A DNA stretch of 64,000 nt from the NCBI RefSeq assembly GCF_029714205.1, contig NZ_CP121648.1, forward strand, positions 5,281,001 to 5,345,000, given 5' to 3'. The notes beneath the pieces are model-generated. The model had not been told where the DNA came from. It made no database searches and saw only the letters and a program-made list of their open reading frames with translations. Every line of letters begins with the position of its first letter. The first letter of the stretch is position 1. Of the stretch, positions 29,852 to 36,469 are shown in pieces. The DNA is from Methylobacterium sp. CB376 (GTDB taxonomy: Bacteria; Pseudomonadota; Alphaproteobacteria; Rhizobiales; Beijerinckiaceae). A program made the position numbers and the translations under genes.

Positions 29852-30139
29852 ATGTCCGACACCTTCGACCGCGTTGCCGACATCATCGCCGAGACGGCCG
29901 ACATCCCGCGCGACTCGATCACGCCGGAGAGCCACGCGATCGACGATCTCGGCATCGACAGCCTCGCCTTCCTCGACATCGCCTTCGCGATCGACAAGGC
30001 CTTCGGCATCAAGCTCCCCCTCGAACAATGGACCCAGGAGGTCAACGAGGGCAAGGTTCCGGCCGAGCAGTACTTCGTGCTCAAGAACCTCTGCGCGCGC
30101 ATCGACGGCCTGGTGGCCGAGAAGGCCGCCAAGGTCTGA
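29852..30139 (+). CDS. acpXL: Specialised acyl carrier protein AcpXL
   Basis: AcpXL carries the very-long-chain (C26-C30) hydroxy fatty acid used for rhizobial-type lipid A. The 95-residue product has the 4'-phosphopantetheine site Ser37 in [19 protein letters not shown] and the acidic helical profile of ACPs, but it is longer than housekeeping AcpP and has the family's C-terminal [21 protein letters not shown]. It is the first gene of the acpXL-fabZXL-fabF2XL-fabF1XL-...-adh2XL-lpxXL cluster. A 13-bp tandem duplication lies on its stop codon. Confidence 0.95.
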
Positions 30140-30175: not shown

Positions 30176-30640
30176 ATGCGGCTCGAATATTTCGAGATGA
30201 TCGATCGGGTGGTCGCCCTCGACCGGCAGGCAGGCCGGATCGAGGCGCTCGCCCGCGTGCCGCAGGAGAGCCCGGTCTTCGAGGGGCACTTCCCCGGCCA
30301 CCCGCTGGTGCCGGGCGTGCTGCTGACCGAGACCATGGCGCAGGCCTCCGGCTACCTCCTCCTCGCCCGCTCGGATTTCACCCACATGCCGTTCCTGATG
30401 GGCGTCGACAAGGCGCGCTTCCGCGCCTTCGTCGGGCCGGGCGCCGACCTCGCCGTCGAGGCGAGCCTGGAGCATGACGGCTCGGGCTACGCGGTGACGA
30501 AGGCGGCGATCCGCGCCGAGGGCAAGCCCCTCTGCAATGCGGAGCTGCGCTTCCGGACGATGCCCTTCCCGGCCGGGCTCGACGGCCCGATGCGGGCGCG
30601 CGCCCGCGCCATCGGCCTCCTCGACGGGGCCGGCGCGTGA
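30176..30640 (+). CDS. fabZXL: FabZ-like 3-hydroxyacyl-ACP dehydratase (FabZXL)
   Basis: The 154-residue hot-dog-fold protein has the FabZ active-site region FEGHFPGHPLVPGVLLTETMAQ with His42 and Glu52, and MGVDKARFRAFVGPGADLAVEA after it. It would dehydrate AcpXL-bound 3-hydroxyacyl chains during very-long-chain elongation. It lies 36 bases after acpXL, and its stop overlaps the GTG start of the next gene (GTGA), indicating translational coupling. Confidence 0.93.
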   Translation: MRLEYFEMIDRVVALDRQAGRIEALARVPQESPVFEGHFPGHPLVPGVLLTETMAQASGYLLLARSDFTHMPFLMGVDKARFRAFVGPGADLAVEASLEHDGSGYAVTKAAIRAEGKPLCNAELRFRTMPFPAGLDGPMRARARAIGLLDGAGA

Positions 30641-31782
30641 GCCCCCGCGACGTCGTCGTCACGGGCCTCGGGCTCGTCTCCTGCGCGGGCGAGGGCGTGG
30701 CCGCCCACCTGGCGGCCCTCGCCGCGGGCGCGCGCCCGCGCACCGACGCGGAGAGCTTCGCGCCCTGGCCGGTCCACCCGGTCGCGCCCCTCGCCCTCGA
30801 CGGGCAGATCCCCAAGAAGGCCGACCAGCGGCAGATGGAGCCCTGGCAGCGGCTCGGCGTCTACGCGGCCGGGCTCGCGCTCGACGCGGCCGGCCTCAAG
30901 GGCGACGCGGCGCGCAAGGGCGCGCTCCACCTCATCGTGGCGGCGGGCGGCGGCGAGCGCGACTACGCGGCGGACGGGCAGATCCTCACCGGGCTGCGCG
31001 ACGCCGCCGATCCGGGCGCCTACCTCAACGAGCGGCTGCAGAACGACCTGCGCCCGACCCTCTTCCTCGCGCAGCTCTCCAACCTGCTCGCCGGCAACAT
31101 CGCCATCGTGCACGGGGTGACGGGCGCCTCGCGCACCTTCATGGGCGAGGAATCGAGCGGCGTCGACGCGCTGCGGATCGCCGGCGCGCGCATCGCGGCC
31201 GGGCAGGTCGACAGCGTGCTGGTCGGCGGCTCCTACAACGCGGAGCGCGCCGACGTGCTCCTGGTCCACGAGATGGGCGGCTACCTCTACCGGCCGGACT
31301 ACGCCCCGGTCTTCCGGCGCGAGGGGCGCGGCGGCTTCATCCTGGGCAGCGGCGCCGCCTTCCTGGTGCTGGAGGCCGCCGAGACCGCGGCGGCCCGCGG
31401 GGCGGCCCCGCTCGCGCGCCTCGCGGCGGTGGCGAGCGACCGCACGCGGCGCGCACCCGGCAGCGTCGCCGCCAGCCTCACGGCGCTCTGGCGCGAGGCG
31501 GGGCTCGAGGCGCCGGACGCGGTGATCTCCGGCGCCACCGGCTGCGCCGGCATCACGCGGGAGGAGGCGGAGCGCCTCGCCGACCTCGCGCCCGGCGCGC
31601 GGGTGAGCGCCCTGGGCGACCTCACCGGCCACACGCTCGAGGCGACGGCCCCCTTCGGGGCGGCCCTGGCGGCCGCCCTGGTGGCGCGGGGAGCGGCCCG
31701 CGAGGTCGCCGTGACGGCGGTCGGGCACCGCCGCGGCGAGGGCGTCCTGCGCATCCTGCCCGCCCGGGAGGCCGGCCGATGA
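30637..31782 (+). CDS. fabF2XL: Ketosynthase-like protein FabF2XL without active-site Cys
   Basis: The 381-residue product has the thiolase-fold ketosynthase frame (VVVTGLGLVSCAGEG at the start; RRGEM-equivalent AAGQV; GGFILGSGAAFLVLE). When aligned on the SSG motif with the neighbour, the active-site Cys position (TACSSG there) is Glu172 (GEESSG here), and the first active-site His (NAHGTGT) is replaced by GATGCAGIT. The second His is kept (His332, LTGHTLEATAPFG). It cannot act as a normal condensing enzyme. The resemblance is to chain-length-factor subunits (KS-beta) of type II polyketide synthases, which pair with an active KS. Start is GTG, overlapping fabZXL by four bases; its stop overlaps fabF1XL by four bases (ATGA). 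Confidence 0.9.
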   Translation: MSPRDVVVTGLGLVSCAGEGVAAHLAALAAGARPRTDAESFAPWPVHPVAPLALDGQIPKKADQRQMEPWQRLGVYAAGLALDAAGLKGDAARKGALHLIVAAGGGERDYAADGQILTGLRDAADPGAYLNERLQNDLRPTLFLAQLSNLLAGNIAIVHGVTGASRTFMGEESSGVDALRIAGARIAAGQVDSVLVGGSYNAERADVLLVHEMGGYLYRPDYAPVFRREGRGGFILGSGAAFLVLEAAETAAARGAAPLARLAAVASDRTRRAPGSVAASLTALWREAGLEAPDAVISGATGCAGITREEAERLADLAPGARVSALGDLTGHTLEATAPFGAALAAALVARGAAREVAVTAVGHRRGEGVLRILPAREAGR

Positions 31783-33044
31783 GTGCCTATCGCGACGCCA
31801 AGGGACGCCCGCTCGTCGCCGTCACCGGCCTCGGCGTGGTGACCTCGCTCGGCCGGGGGGTGGCGGAGAACTGGGCCGCCCTCACCGCCGGGCGCTCGGG
31901 CATCCACGCCATCACGCGGTTCCCGACCGACGGGCTGCGCACCCGCATCGCCGGCACGGTCGATTTCCTGGCTGCCGAGCCGATGGTGGCGCCGGTCCTG
32001 TCGGAGGCCCTCGCCGCCGCCGCCGCCGAGGAGGCGGTGGCCGAGGCGGGCCTGCCGGGCGATTTCCCGGGGGCGCTCTTCATCGCCGTCCCGCCCGTCG
32101 AGATGGAATGGCCGCAGCGCCAGGCTCTCGCGGCGCAGGCGACGGGCGAGGTCACCTACGCCGACCTGCTGCGGGCGGCGGCCACCCGCCGCTTCGACGA
32201 CTGGCACGACCTCTTCATCTTCGGCACCGTGGCCGACCGCATCGCCGACCGCTTCGGCACCCGGGGCTCGCCGATCTCCCTCTCGACCGCCTGCTCGTCC
32301 GGGGCGACCGCGATCCAGCTCGGCGTCGAGGCGATCCGCCGCGGCGAGATGCGGGCGGCGCTCTGCATCGGCACCGACGGGTCGGTGAACCCGGAATCGC
32401 TGATCCGCTTCTCGCTGCTCTCCGCGCTCTCGACCCAGAACGACCCGCCCGAGGCGGCCGCCAAGCCCTTCGCCAAGAACCGGGACGGCTTCGTGATGGG
32501 CGAGGGCGCCGCCGCCCTGGTGCTGGAGGAGGCCGAGGCCGCCGCCGCCCGCGGGGCGCGCATCCTCGGCTACGTCCTCGGCTGCGGCGAGAAGGGCGAC
32601 GGCTTCCACCGCACCCGCTCCAGCCCCGACGGCGCCCCGATCATCGCGGCGATCCGCGAGGCGATCGCCGATGCCGGGCTGGACCCGGACCGGATCGACA
32701 CCGTGAACGCCCACGGCACCGGCACGCCCGAGAACGACAAGATGGAGGCGCTGGGCTGCCTCGCGGTGATGGGCGAGCGGATGCGCTCGGTCCCGATCTC
32801 CTCGAACAAATCGATGATCGGCCACACGCTGACGGCGGCGGGCGCCGTCGAGGCGGTGGTCTCGCTCCTCACCCTCCGGCACGGCCGCGTGCCGCCGACC
32901 CTGAACTACGCGCTGCCCGACCCGGCGATCCCCCTCGACGTGGTGACGCGGGCCCGCGACCTGCCGGTGCGCACCGTCCTGTCGAACTCCTTCGGCTTCG
33001 GCGGGCAGAATACCTGCCTGGTCTTCGGGGCGGAGCCGGCGTGA
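31779..33044 (+). CDS. fabF1XL: 3-oxoacyl-ACP synthase FabF1XL (active)
   Basis: This 421-residue FabF-type condensing enzyme has the complete triad: Cys172 (SLSTACSSGATAIQ), His312 (VNAHGTGTPEND) and His349 (NKSMIGHTLTAAGAVEA), plus the Lys of the KSM loop. It should extend AcpXL-bound acyl chains with malonyl-ACP. It overlaps fabF2XL by ATGA and the next SDR gene by GTGA, so the three products are made in fixed proportion, which fits a heterodimer with FabF2XL. Confidence 0.95.
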   Translation: MSAYRDAKGRPLVAVTGLGVVTSLGRGVAENWAALTAGRSGIHAITRFPTDGLRTRIAGTVDFLAAEPMVAPVLSEALAAAAAEEAVAEAGLPGDFPGALFIAVPPVEMEWPQRQALAAQATGEVTYADLLRAAATRRFDDWHDLFIFGTVADRIADRFGTRGSPISLSTACSSGATAIQLGVEAIRRGEMRAALCIGTDGSVNPESLIRFSLLSALSTQNDPPEAAAKPFAKNRDGFVMGEGAAALVLEEAEAAAARGARILGYVLGCGEKGDGFHRTRSSPDGAPIIAAIREAIADAGLDPDRIDTVNAHGTGTPENDKMEALGCLAVMGERMRSVPISSNKSMIGHTLTAAGAVEAVVSLLTLRHGRVPPTLNYALPDPAIPLDVVTRARDLPVRTVLSNSFGFGGQNTCLVFGAEPA

Positions 33045-33811
33045 CCGCCTCCCCTGCGCGCGGCGGGCGCGTCCTCGTCACGGGCGGGGCCCGGGGCCTC
33101 GGCGCCGCGATCGTGCGGGCGCTCGCCGCCTCCGGCCACGACGTCGACTTCACCTTCCGCGGCTCGGCCGAGGCCGCGGCGGCGCTGGCGGCGGAGCTCG
33201 CGGCGGCGCATCCGGACCGGGCCGTGCGGGCGCTCCCCCTCGACCTCGCCGACCGGGCGCGCCTCGACGCCTTCGCGGAGGCGGCGGCGGAGACCGGCTA
33301 TCACGGGCTCGTGCACAATGCGGGCCAGTCCTCCGACGCGCTCGCGGCCATGCTCGACCAGGACCGGGCCGAGGCGGCGATGCAGGTGAACTTCTGGTCG
33401 CTCACCCGCCTCGCCAAGGCGCTGGTGCGGCCGATGACCCGGGCGAAGTCCGGCCGCATCGTGGCGATCGGCTCGGTGGCGGCCCTGCGCGGCAACCCGG
33501 GCAACGCCGCCTACGCGGCGAGCAAGGGCGCCCTCATCAGCTACTGCCGCACCCTGGCCCTCGAATGCGCCCGGCGCGGCGTCACCGTGAACGTGGTGGC
33601 GCCGGGCTTCGTCGACACCGCCATGATGGCGCCCTACGCGGCCCACCGCGCCGCCATGGAGAAGCAGATCCCGGCGGGGCGCTTCGCCGCGCCCGAGGAC
33701 GTGGCCGGGCTCGTCGCCTTCCTGATGGGGCCGCAAGCCGCCTACATCACCGGGGCGGTGCTCCCGGTCGATGGCGGGCTCACCGCCATGATGGGCGTGC
33801 ACCGGGGCTGA
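33041..33811 (+). CDS. FabG-like short-chain dehydrogenase/reductase
   Basis: The 256-residue SDR has the NADP-binding TGGARGLG near the N-terminus, VHNAG, a catalytic Ser in IGSVAALRGNPG, and YAASKGAL with the Tyr-x3-Lys pair, then PGFVDTAMM. It fits a 3-oxoacyl-ACP reductase for the AcpXL chain. The GTG start overlaps the fabF1XL stop by four bases. In the rhizobial clusters I know, an SDR is not always listed between fabF1XL and adh2XL, but its coupling here supports membership. Confidence 0.92.
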   Translation: MTASPARGGRVLVTGGARGLGAAIVRALAASGHDVDFTFRGSAEAAAALAAELAAAHPDRAVRALPLDLADRARLDAFAEAAAETGYHGLVHNAGQSSDALAAMLDQDRAEAAMQVNFWSLTRLAKALVRPMTRAKSGRIVAIGSVAALRGNPGNAAYAASKGALISYCRTLALECARRGVTVNVVAPGFVDTAMMAPYAAHRAAMEKQIPAGRFAAPEDVAGLVAFLMGPQAAYITGAVLPVDGGLTAMMGVHRG

Positions 33812-33903
33812 GCGCGCTCTTGAAACCGCCGCATTGTCTGCGCCCAACATCGTCACCGAAGCGGGTTGCGCCGATGACGGCGCGCAATCAGGGACCTCGC
33901 GCG

Positions 33904-34185
33904 ATGCGCCGCATCCGCCTGGCGGCGGCCGCTCTCGTCCTCGCGACCGGAGCGGCCCTCGCCCAATCCGAGACGTTCCGGGTCGACGACGTGCCCCCGG
34001 GCGATTCCCTCAGCATCCGCGAGGCGCCCGACGCCGCCGCGCCGGCGGTCGGCCGTGCCCCCTGGGACGCGCGCCTGCGCGGCTTCGGCTGCACCACCGA
34101 CACGCCGAGCGGGCGCACGTGGTGCCGGGTCAAGTACGGCCGCATCGTCGGCTGGGCCCGGCGCAAGTTCCTGGCGCCGGAGTGA
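33904..34185 (+). CDS. Small secreted SH3-like protein
   Basis: The 93-residue product has a signal peptide (MRRIRLAAAALVLATGAALAQ, residues 1-21) and one bacterial SH3-type domain: LSIREAPDAAAPAVGRAPWDARLRGFGC, then TWCRVKYGRIVGWARRKFLAPE. Two Cys may pair. The ATG at 33904 is chosen because the signal starts there and CAGGGA lies upstream; ATG at 33874 adds ten polar residues. Such proteins bind envelope polymers or regulate hydrolases. It sits between the SDR and adh genes of the lipid A cluster, 92 bases after the SDR, and may be an insertion. Confidence 0.82.
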   Translation: MRRIRLAAAALVLATGAALAQSETFRVDDVPPGDSLSIREAPDAAAPAVGRAPWDARLRGFGCTTDTPSGRTWCRVKYGRIVGWARRKFLAPE

Positions 34186-34340: not shown

Positions 34341-35363
34341 ATGCAAGCCCTTCAGATCTTCGGCGAACGCGACCTGCGCCTGACGCAGGTCGACGCGCCG
34401 CCCCCGCCCGGCCCGGGCGAGGTCGAGGTGCGGATCCGCGCGGTCGGCCTCAACTTCATCGACGTCTGGGGCTTCCGCGGCATGGCCTTCGCCAAGCGGC
34501 GGCTCCCGCTCACCGTGGGGGCGGAGGCCGCGGGCGAGGTCGCGGCGGTCGGCGAGGGCGTGGCGGGGCTGAGGGCCGGCGACCCGGTCGCCCTCTACGG
34601 CGCCCTCACCTGCGGGCATTGCCGCGCCTGCCGGGAGGGCCGGGACAACCTCTGCGAGGAGGTCGGCGGGGTGATGGGCTTCCACATCGACGGCTTCGCG
34701 CGCGAGCGCGTGGTGATGCCGGCCCGGCTCGTCGTGCCGGTCCCGGCGGGGGTCGGCCTCGTCGAGGCGGCCTGCGCGCCGATCGCCTTCGGCACCGTGC
34801 AGCACATGCTGTTCGACAATGCCCGCCTGGAGCCGGGCGAGTCGATCCTGGTCCATGCGGGCGGCTCGGGCATCGGCACCGCGGCGATCAAGATGGCGAA
34901 GGCGATCGGCTGCACGGTCTTCACCACGGTGGGGGACGACGCCAAGGGCGAGAAGGCCAGGGCGCTGGGGGCCGACCACGTCATCAATTACCGCCGCGAG
35001 CGCTTCGAGGGCGAGGTGCGGCGGCTGACCAGGCGCAAGGGCGTCGACGTGGTCTTCGAGCATGTCGGGGCCGAGACCTGGAACGGCTCGCTGCTCTGCC
35101 TGAAGCGCGGCGGGCGGCTGGTGACCTGCGGCTCGACCTCGGGCGTCTCCGCCACCATGAACCTGATGCAGCTCTTCCAGCAGCAGTACCGGATCACCGG
35201 CTCGTTCGGCTGCCGCCTCGCCAACATCGCGGAGGCGCTGGCCAAGATGGCGGCCGGCCTGACCCCGGTCGTCGACACGGTGCTGCCCCTGGCGCGGTTC
35301 GAGGAGGGGCTCGCCCGGCTCGAATCCCGCCAGGTTTTCGGCAAGATCATCGCCACCCTGTGA
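34341..35363 (+). CDS. Zinc-type alcohol dehydrogenase/quinone reductase family protein (Adh2XL)
   Basis: The 340-residue medium-chain dehydrogenase has the GroES-like N-terminal domain with a structural-zinc loop GALTCGHCRACREGRDNLCEE (four Cys) and a Rossmann domain with HAGGSGIGTAAIKMAKAIG. The catalytic-zinc Cys near residue 38 is not present (GLNFIDVWGFRG), as in enoyl or quinone reductase branches. In the acpXL clusters of rhizobia the gene at this position is adh2XL, an alcohol dehydrogenase/enoyl reductase candidate for the very-long chain. The start follows a 155-base gap. Confidence 0.85.
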   Translation: MQALQIFGERDLRLTQVDAPPPPGPGEVEVRIRAVGLNFIDVWGFRGMAFAKRRLPLTVGAEAAGEVAAVGEGVAGLRAGDPVALYGALTCGHCRACREGRDNLCEEVGGVMGFHIDGFARERVVMPARLVVPVPAGVGLVEAACAPIAFGTVQHMLFDNARLEPGESILVHAGGSGIGTAAIKMAKAIGCTVFTTVGDDAKGEKARALGADHVINYRRERFEGEVRRLTRRKGVDVVFEHVGAETWNGSLLCLKRGGRLVTCGSTSGVSATMNLMQLFQQQYRITGSFGCRLANIAEALAKMAAGLTPVVDTVLPLARFEEGLARLESRQVFGKIIATL

Positions 35364-35464: not shown

Positions 35465-36469
35465 GTGCTGCGCCTGAAGTTGAGGCTGTACCGCACCGCC
35501 TCCCGCCTCGCCGAATGGCCGATGATCGCGCTGGTGCGCCTGCTCTTCGGCATCGCGAGCCTGCTCGGGCCGCGGCGGGCGGGCGGCTTCGGGGCCTGGC
35601 TCGGCCGGACGCTCGGGCCGCGCCTGCCCGCGCACCGCACCGCCCTCGACAACCTGCGCCAGGCCTTTCCGGAGCGCAGCGAGGCGGAGATCGCCGCCCT
35701 CGCCCGCGGGGCCTGGGAGAATCTCGGCCGCACCGGCGCCGAGTACGCCCATCTCGGCGAGATCTTCGATTACGACCCGCAGGCCCCGGCTCCCGGCCGG
35801 ATCGAGGTCGAGGGCATCGAGCACTTCTTCGCGCTGCGCGACGACGGCCGGCCGGGCCTGATCTTCTCCGCGCACCTCGGCAACTGGGAATTGCCGGCGA
35901 TCTGCGCGGCGCGCTTCGGCCTGGAGGCGAGCGCGGTCTTCCGCCCGCCCAACAACCCGGCGGCCAAGCGCCTCGTCGCCGAGGTGCGCCGGGCCACGAT
36001 GGGCGGCCTCACCGCGGCGGGCCCGGGCGCCGCCTTCGCCATGCAGGGCGTGGTCGAGCGCGGCGGCCATCTCGGGATGCTGGTCGACCAGCACTTCACC
36101 CGCGGGGTGGTGGTCGAGTTCTTCGGCCGGCCGGTCCTGGTCAACCCGCTCCTGGCCAAGCTCGCGCGCCACTACGAGTGCCCGGTCCACGGCGTGCGGG
36201 TGATCCGCCTCGGCGCGGACCGCTTCCGGCTCGAACTCACCCCGGCCCTCGACCTGCCCCGCGACGCCGCCGGGGCGGTGGACGTCCGCGGCGCCATGCA
36301 GGCGATGACGCGGGTGATCGAGGGATGGGTGCGCGAGCATCCCGACCAGTGGATGTGGATGCACCGGCGCTGGCGGCCCGCGATGCTGCCGCGCACGGAG
36401 CAGCCGGGCGTGTCCTCGGCCCCGGCTCAAGCTAACGTGACTTCCGTCGGGCCGATCACGGGGGCTTGA
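35465..36469 (+). CDS. lpxXL: Lipid A very-long-chain acyltransferase LpxXL
   Basis: The 334-residue product is an HtrB/LpxL-type acyltransferase: N-terminal membrane-associated helix (about 19-36), catalytic HX4E motif with His137 and Glu142 (FSAHLGNWELPAI), FRPPNNPAAKRLVAEVR, LVDQHFTRGVVVEFFGRP and the C-terminal QWMWMHRRWRP. It transfers the AcpXL-bound very-long acyl chain to lipid A at the inner face of the inner membrane and closes the cluster. The start is GTG at 35465. The next gene begins seven bases after its stop. Confidence 0.93.
   Translation: MLRLKLRLYRTASRLAEWPMIALVRLLFGIASLLGPRRAGGFGAWLGRTLGPRLPAHRTALDNLRQAFPERSEAEIAALARGAWENLGRTGAEYAHLGEIFDYDPQAPAPGRIEVEGIEHFFALRDDGRPGLIFSAHLGNWELPAICAARFGLEASAVFRPPNNPAAKRLVAEVRRATMGGLTAAGPGAAFAMQGVVERGGHLGMLVDQHFTRGVVVEFFGRPVLVNPLLAKLARHYECPVHGVRVIRLGADRFRLELTPALDLPRDAAGAVDVRGAMQAMTRVIEGWVREHPDQWMWMHRRWRPAMLPRTEQPGVSSAPAQANVTSVGPITGA

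Follow-up and report, generated by a model that had tools for sequence, protein, structure and literature searches.

FabF2XL, a Cys-less ketosynthase homolog of the lipid A operon in Methylobacterium sp. CB376, is a probable chain-length-factor-like partner of FabF1XL

Introduction

In pairs of a ketosynthase (KS) and a chain-length factor (CLF), the cavity extends to both subunits, each of which forms part of its lining, and how deep it is limits the chain length (PMC8358021, PMC12664062). For two such heterodimers, ApeO-ApeC and AmcF-AmcG, the evidence comes from crystal structure and from co-expression with gel filtration (PMC8358021, PMC10698177). Here we describe a pair of adjacent genes, fabF2XL and fabF1XL, in a 64,000-nucleotide stretch of Methylobacterium sp. 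CB376 (RefSeq assembly GCF_029714205.1, contig NZ_CP121648.1, positions 5,281,001 to 5,345,000, forward strand), referred to below as the window. The pair lies in an operon-like run composed of acpXL, fabZXL, fabF2XL, fabF1XL, a short-chain dehydrogenase/reductase (SDR) gene, a zinc-type dehydrogenase gene and lpxXL; the XL names follow published usage for the rhizobial cluster. Rhizobia, Methylobacterium and their kin have an outer membrane stiffened by a C26-C30 hydroxy fatty acid.

We consider it probable (roughly 0.7) that FabF2XL is a catalytically dead, CLF-like obligate partner of FabF1XL in an elongase resembling a type II polyketide synthase (PKS); the heterodimer, the tunnel and the measuring of the chain are what we infer. 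The evidence for a CLF-like partner is that Cys, His and Lys are missing throughout the family, that the two genes are inherited together also where they are unlinked, that conservation has moved off the catalytic motifs, and that a published mutant needs fabF2XL for the long fatty acid. A sequence-only reading of the window had proposed that FabF2XL is a chain-length-setting or decarboxylating partner. These four lines support the non-catalytic CLF-like partner well, if indirectly. The decarboxylase half of that proposal is not supported: His and Lys are gone and no relative has Gln. Searches of an open-licence library found no description of a CLF-like role for FabF2XL.

Results and Discussion

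Active-site residues of the two proteins

The two genes and the residues discussed below are located in the window as follows.

30637 to 31782, + strand: fabF2XL, Cys-less ketosynthase homolog, proposed CLF-like partner (NF005084 (PRK06519) 537.1 bits, cut-off 320; catalytic residues gone)
30952 to 30963, + strand: FabF2XL residues 106-109, GERD motif (Arg108 in 259 of 259; low-confidence loop of the monomer model)
31036 to 31152, + strand: FabF2XL residues 134-172, where conservation in the family is highest; the last two are Glu171-Glu172
31147 to 31152, + strand: codons of Glu171-Glu172, aligned with Ala162-Cys163 of E. coli FabF
31537 to 31539, + strand: FabF2XL Thr301 codon, position of the first active-site His (alignment)
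31630 to 31632, + strand: FabF2XL His332 codon, the retained second His (alignment)
31779 to 33044, + strand: fabF1XL, catalytically intact ketosynthase (NF005076 740.1 bits, cut-off 629)
32292 to 32294, + strand: FabF1XL catalytic Cys172 codon (alignment)
32712 to 32825, + strand: FabF1XL segment with His312, Lys344 and His349 (alignment)

Both open reading frames were found where the sequence-only reading had placed them (30637-31782 and 31779-33044, overlapping by ATGA). The start codon of fabF2XL is GTG and its product has 381 aa; fabF1XL starts with ATG and encodes 421 aa. Aligned with E. coli FabF, the elbow of FabF2XL reads SRTFMGEESSG and Glu172 falls on Cys163, while Thr301, Gly327 and His332 correspond to His303, Lys335 and His340. 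The substitution of Glu172 for Cys, the loss of the first His and the retention of the second, all claimed earlier, are confirmed by this alignment. Two further features had gone unremarked: FabF2XL also lacks the catalytic Lys, and the residue preceding Glu172 is a conserved Glu as well. The elbow of FabF1XL is STACSSG, and the Cys172/His312/His349 triad attributed to it is present together with Lys344. FabF2XL thus lacks the full Cys-His-His-Lys set of an active beta-ketoacyl-acyl carrier protein (ACP) synthase, with His332 as the sole survivor.

Fixed loss of catalytic residues among relatives

Relatives were collected from GTDB contigs (the best 80 of 552 encoding a relative) and from whole-genome searches. 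A FabF2XL frame was found in 264 of the 292 loci and a FabF1XL frame in 260, giving 260 pairs. After removal of sequences identical beyond residue 20, 259 FabF2XL and 255 FabF1XL remained; incomplete frames and second copies are counted among them, as is the gene of the window itself. Six matches lie outside this set (G128, the second copy in G156, G602, one G654 copy, G684 and G696) and are mostly fragments or contig ends.

The Cys position is occupied by Glu in 258 of the 259 distinct FabF2XL sequences and by Asp in one (locus L280, GEDPGG); Cys and Gln were found in none. The preceding residue is Glu in 257 of 259. The first His position carries T (131), S (105), C (10), A (5), N (3), V, P or G (1 each) or a gap (2), and His in none of the 257 readable rows. 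The Lys position is similarly varied (G 171, A 37, S 32, T 9, Q 5, P 2, V 1, N 1, gap 1), with no Lys in 258. The second His is retained in 233 of 257 readable rows. The 255 distinct FabF1XL sequences contain Cys in 254, with one unreadable, and His, Lys and His in 255 each. Across the 255 aligned pairs, FabF2XL sequences have a median pairwise identity of 51% and FabF1XL sequences one of 62%, so the Glu has been retained in FabF2XL despite considerable divergence.

The sequence-only reading had named a Cys in close homologs as the sign of a local mutation, and none of the 259 sequences has one. A local mutation or a pseudogene was rejected, since the Glu is common to 258 of 259. The frames are open in the best 30 to 58 rows of each search, save for one fragment (G684, one TAG). 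FabF2XL as an active second ketosynthase was likewise rejected on its residues.

Public annotation (NCBIfam and PLSDB, and an S. meliloti record) labels both proteins beta-ketoacyl-ACP synthase. That both are ordinary ketosynthases, as these names and the complete KS fold would have it, has a negligible probability, because all catalytic residues of FabF2XL except one His are lost family-wide. The name of NF005084 / PRK06519, 'beta-ketoacyl-ACP synthase', looks wrong, as the members have no catalytic Cys; should FabF2XL prove to be a CLF-like partner, this NCBIfam family as a whole carries the wrong name.

Ketosynthases that decarboxylate malonyl groups do so with the His and the Lys, and KSQ proteins have Gln for Cys with His and Lys kept. 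Synthesis of the very-long-chain fatty acid (VLCFA) is thought to begin from a long acyl chain. It is very improbable that FabF2XL is a KSQ-type decarboxylase producing acetyl-AcpXL from malonyl-AcpXL as the chain primer: Glu at the Cys position is akin to Gln and Glu-Glu aligns with the Glu-Gln of a CLF, but Gln occurs in none of the 259 sequences, no readable row has the His or the Lys used for decarboxylation, and the start from a long acyl chain speaks against such a primer. A homodimer with some other chemistry, using Glu-His-His (Glu172, His332 and His364) in the old active site, is a comparably long shot. Glu-Glu-His-His is retained together in 182 of 259 relatives; however, His332 is absent in 24 and His364 in 62 of 257 readable rows, and the pairing with FabF1XL described below would require a separate reason.

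Co-inheritance of FabF2XL and FabF1XL

FabF2XL and FabF1XL are almost always inherited together. Of 199 genomes of the order, 51 exceed the curated cut-off for FabF2XL, and these same 51 exceed that for FabF1XL. Among 385 genomes of the class, FabF2XL is over its cut-off in 18, with FabF1XL at E 1e-130 or better in 17 of those, and no genome has FabF1XL at that level without FabF2XL. Seven of the 17 are under the FabF1XL cut-off although the gene adjoins FabF2XL, which indicates that the cut-off is slightly strict outside the order. FabF1XL was absent from all seven genomes without a FabF2XL match (3 of 61, 2 of 61 and 2 of 7 in three genome sets), and six other re-searched genomes, with FabF2XL, all have FabF1XL. 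Where two FabF2XL were seen in a genome, two FabF1XL were also present (G693, G654, G046, G011, G059, G096 and G156). In a sample of 150 genomes of the phylum, FabF2XL (E 1e-40 or better) was detected in 14, all of the window's class.

Most pairs (246 of 260) are in one fetched locus, all on the same strand, with a median gap of 16 bases. In 13 loci (12 from Methylobacterium and one from a Beijerinckiaceae bin) fabF2XL and fabF1XL have been separated by a break in the run:

L003, L004, L008, L013, L015, L017, L023, L028, L029, L031, L037, L040 and L043: broken runs

All 13 genomes retain both genes, with acpXL-fabZXL-fabF2XL at one site and fabF1XL-SDR at another; the dehydrogenase gene is visible in 10. 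Retention of both genes in 13 of 13 broken operons weakens the explanation that the pairing is operon hitch-hiking only. The split loci also offer a natural test case for whether the pair needs co-translation.

A second, diverged pair is found in one genus of family f12 (G011, G059, G096 and G156) and in G693 (loci L287, L288, L289 and L266); in L287 this second pair has Glu-Glu in FabF2XL and Cys in FabF1XL. A fabF2XL-fabF1XL pair, also with Glu-Glu and Cys respectively, is located beside a methyltransferase gene on a conjugative Bradyrhizobium plasmid (L294:6965-9486), and no acpXL or fabZXL was found within the 15 kb fetched.

Conservation pattern and monomer models

The ketosynthase loop about 30 residues ahead of the Cys is part of the dimer interface. 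Columns conserved in 97% or more of the sequences were counted as near-invariant. FabF2XL has 55 such columns, 31 of them among the 80 residues at 96-175 and four among the 121 after 260. Of the 113 in FabF1XL, 12 fall among the 80 residues at 96-175 and 53 among the 161 after 260. By these counts, constraint in FabF2XL has shifted from the part that bears His and Lys to the segment ahead of the nucleophile elbow. Residues 141-150 form the most conserved ten-residue block of the FabF2XL family. FabF1XL has a conserved acidic loop, PPVExEW, at 105-111 (Glu108 in 249 and Trp111 in 255 of 255). For type I enzymes, PMC12370991 describes loops at the KS dimer interface that carry TNGQ or VMYH motifs.

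AlphaFold models the FabF2XL monomer with the KS fold complete (predicted local distance difference test score, pLDDT, 86.0; predicted template modelling score, pTM, 0.86). Segments under pLDDT 50 are 105-111, 135-148 and the C-terminus. Low model confidence at conserved stretches would suit a surface shaped by a partner, but the support is weak and the control cautions against relying on it: the model of FabF1XL (pLDDT 84.7, pTM 0.89) is likewise unsure at conserved catalytic loops (211-240), and FabF2XL residues 111-130 are modelled with low confidence yet are not conserved. The inputs of the FabF2XL and FabF1XL models were shallow (47 and 44 sequences).

Published mutants and the question of chain measuring

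Insertion mutants of fabF2XL and of the dehydrogenase gene in Agrobacterium fabrum have lipid A without VLCFA, and plasmid-borne fabF2XL alone partly restored it in the fabF2XL mutant, according to the available text of PMC11901934. The insertion cassette may affect downstream genes too. In Bradyrhizobium ORS278, attempts to mutate acpXL, fabZXL, fabF1XL and fabF2XL were unsuccessful, as stated in the available part of PMC5613085, and these genes may therefore be essential. An S. meliloti FabF2XL has Glu-Glu; the A. fabrum FabF2XL sequence was not seen under the species name. It follows from the mutant data that a protein without a ketosynthase active site is required for making the fatty acid. 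The complete loss of VLCFA, with no change of length, suggests that FabF2XL is needed for elongation itself.

The same phenotype, a loss of function, also fits a subunit that does not measure. FabF2XL could partner FabF1XL or AcpXL only as a stabilizing or ACP-docking subunit, with the length set by the FabF1XL pocket or by LpxXL selectivity, and the conserved acidic loop of FabF1XL itself would fit that alternative. We regard it as unlikely, because the KS-CLF cavity of ApeO-ApeC is lined by both subunits in the available text of PMC8358021 and the conserved FabF2XL stretch is the one expected there.

Proposed mechanism and operon

In the mechanism that we propose for FabF2XL as a CLF-like partner, FabF1XL would perform the Claisen condensations at its Cys-His-His-Lys site, and FabF2XL would take the place of the second subunit in the usual ketosynthase dimer. 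Residues 96-175 of FabF2XL would provide the interface and the floor of a tunnel fitting C26-C30 acyl chains on AcpXL. FabZXL and the reductases would reduce each turn, and LpxXL would transfer the chain to lipid A. AcpXL, FabZXL, the SDR (where present) and the dehydrogenase as a possible enoyl reductase (ER) could make up a nearly self-contained reducing elongation cycle. The remaining genes of the run are as follows.

29852 to 30139, + strand: acpXL, acyl carrier protein AcpXL (NF005079 180.9 bits, cut-off 83)
30176 to 30640, + strand: fabZXL, 3-hydroxyacyl-ACP dehydratase (FabA-like PF07977; best NCBIfam family FabZ, 92.2 bits, under its cut-off of 113)
33041 to 33811, + strand: SDR, probable dedicated 3-oxoacyl-ACP reductase (KR) (PF13561; NCBIfam FabG 209.6 bits, under its cut-off of 222)
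34341 to 35363, + strand: zinc-type dehydrogenase, adh2XL-like, possible ER (PF08240 and PF00107; none of the 25 NCBIfam families shown is over its cut-off)
35465 to 36469, + strand: lpxXL, lipid A long-chain acyltransferase (NF005120 482.4 bits, cut-off 273)

Three successive junctions overlap by 4 bases: GTGA at 30637-30640 (fabZXL/fabF2XL), ATGA at 31779-31782 (fabF2XL/fabF1XL) and GTGA at 33041-33044 (fabF1XL/SDR). This suggests coupled translation. The sequence-only reading had noted the middle overlap. A small SH3_3-like protein with a signal-like start (about 33808-34185; Pfam 24.8, cut-off 27) is encoded between the SDR and the dehydrogenase. The SDR gene follows fabF1XL in 61 of 82 loci searched (L001-L080, L293 and L294) and accompanies it in all 13 broken operons; no such gene was detected in the S. 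meliloti cluster or in six loci resembling it.

A more specific model is tentative, and we rate its chances as somewhat less than even. In Hyphomicrobiales and some other Alphaproteobacteria, the elongase that serves lipid A would be a fully reducing type II PKS-like machine, with an obligate FabF1XL-FabF2XL heterodimer formed via facing near-invariant charged loops (PPVExEW 105-111 and GERD 106-109). Glu171-Glu172 and residues 134-172 of FabF2XL would close the tunnel end and so fix C26-C30. Glu108 of FabF1XL may correspond to Asp113, an acidic residue in the pocket of Iga11, which is the KS of the ishigamide pair; a predicted FabF1XL strand at 99-103 suits this match, while three MAFFT alignments place it otherwise.

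If FabF2XL is indeed a CLF-like partner, the condensing step should be reconstitutable by co-expressing both proteins and not one, and chain length should be testable via point changes in a single non-catalytic protein. The KS-CLF pair, best known from pigments and antibiotics, would then have a place in primary envelope metabolism.

Several observations weigh against FabF2XL as a CLF-like, chain-measuring partner or lend it no clear support. The published mutant lost the long chain altogether and did not make one of another length, so that its phenotype does not bear on measuring. A first direct coupling analysis (DCA) between FabF2XL and FabF1XL gave noise. Mutual information with average product correction (MI-APC) ranked 100 pairs highest, of which 24 fell in the expected region where 8.1 were expected; within-clade permutation reduced this to 9-19 against 8.1. 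One of the 18 FabF2XL genomes of the class sample (G423), with a FabF2XL fragment at a contig end, yielded no FabF1XL. FabF2XL did not group with the two Streptomyces CLFs sampled in the tree, and its profile scores higher with FabF chains in the PDB (88 bits) than with the CLF chains 1tqy_B (58) and 6smo_C (53). Two position sets, FabF2XL 205 with FabF1XL 128 and FabF2XL 173 and 177 with FabF1XL 164, are near the top in some phylogeny-controlled rankings and serve as leads only.

Comparison with known ketosynthase pairs

In the tree, FabF2XL forms one clade on a long stem (100/100) and FabF1XL a separate clade (100/100). FabF1XL groups with Streptomyces KSs with support of 93/93 (four such rows), or 91/95 with three when two long-branch rows are omitted. 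Two of these Streptomyces KSs are ishigamide-like; one matches Iga11 (6kxd_A) with 556 bits and its neighbor matches Iga12 (6kxd_B) with 238 bits. The narrower clade of FabF1XL and the two ishigamide-like KSs is neither rejected nor established (approximately unbiased (AU) test, p 0.397). PDB entry 9s5h has two different synthase chains, B and C, of which C seems by alignment to be without the Cys; it is perhaps another KS-CLF pair.

E. coli FabF (KAS II) has the same fold as FabF2XL, and FabF chains are the best PDB sequence relatives of the FabF2XL profile. FabF, however, is an active homodimer, whereas FabF2XL is without the Cys, the first His and the Lys.

The ishigamide pair Iga11-Iga12 (6kxd) and similar highly reducing type II PKS systems combine a KS, a Cys-less partner, a KR and a dehydratase (DH) in the available text of PMC8358021. 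The top Foldseek match of FabF2XL is 6kxd_A, which is the KS chain, and the next matches, FabFs, score similarly. Iga12 has Arg at the Cys place where FabF2XL has Glu, so that known partners do not all have Gln; Ala or Arg occupies the site in other Cys-less partners. The aryl polyene ApeO-ApeC and cispentacin AmcF-AmcG pairs, as given in the available parts of PMC8358021 and PMC10698177, consist of a KS and a partner without the functional motif, as do FabF1XL and FabF2XL. ApeC is about half size with one thiolase fold remaining, while FabF2XL retains both halves.

With the actinorhodin-type KS-CLF (1tqy) the pair shares an intact KS beside a full-length, Cys-less partner of KS fold, and a 4 bp gene overlap is also seen in two fetched Streptomyces pairs. 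The FabF2XL profile scores 58 bits with the actinorhodin CLF and 49 bits with the actinorhodin KS. The elbows of the two fetched actinorhodin-type CLFs read SDQ and SEQ where FabF2XL has GEE; 1tqy_B and one fetched CLF have Glu-Gln and the other has Asp-Gln. By sequence, the Glu-Glu of FabF2XL resembles the Glu-Gln of CLFs. Unlike in the actinorhodin type, the gene of the dead partner comes first and Glu stands instead of Gln; the XL operon, which serves lipid A, encodes a DH and, here, also a KR and a possible ER. The locus thus has the intact KS, the Cys-less partner of KS fold and the co-inheritance of a KS-CLF pair, with Glu in the place of the Gln.

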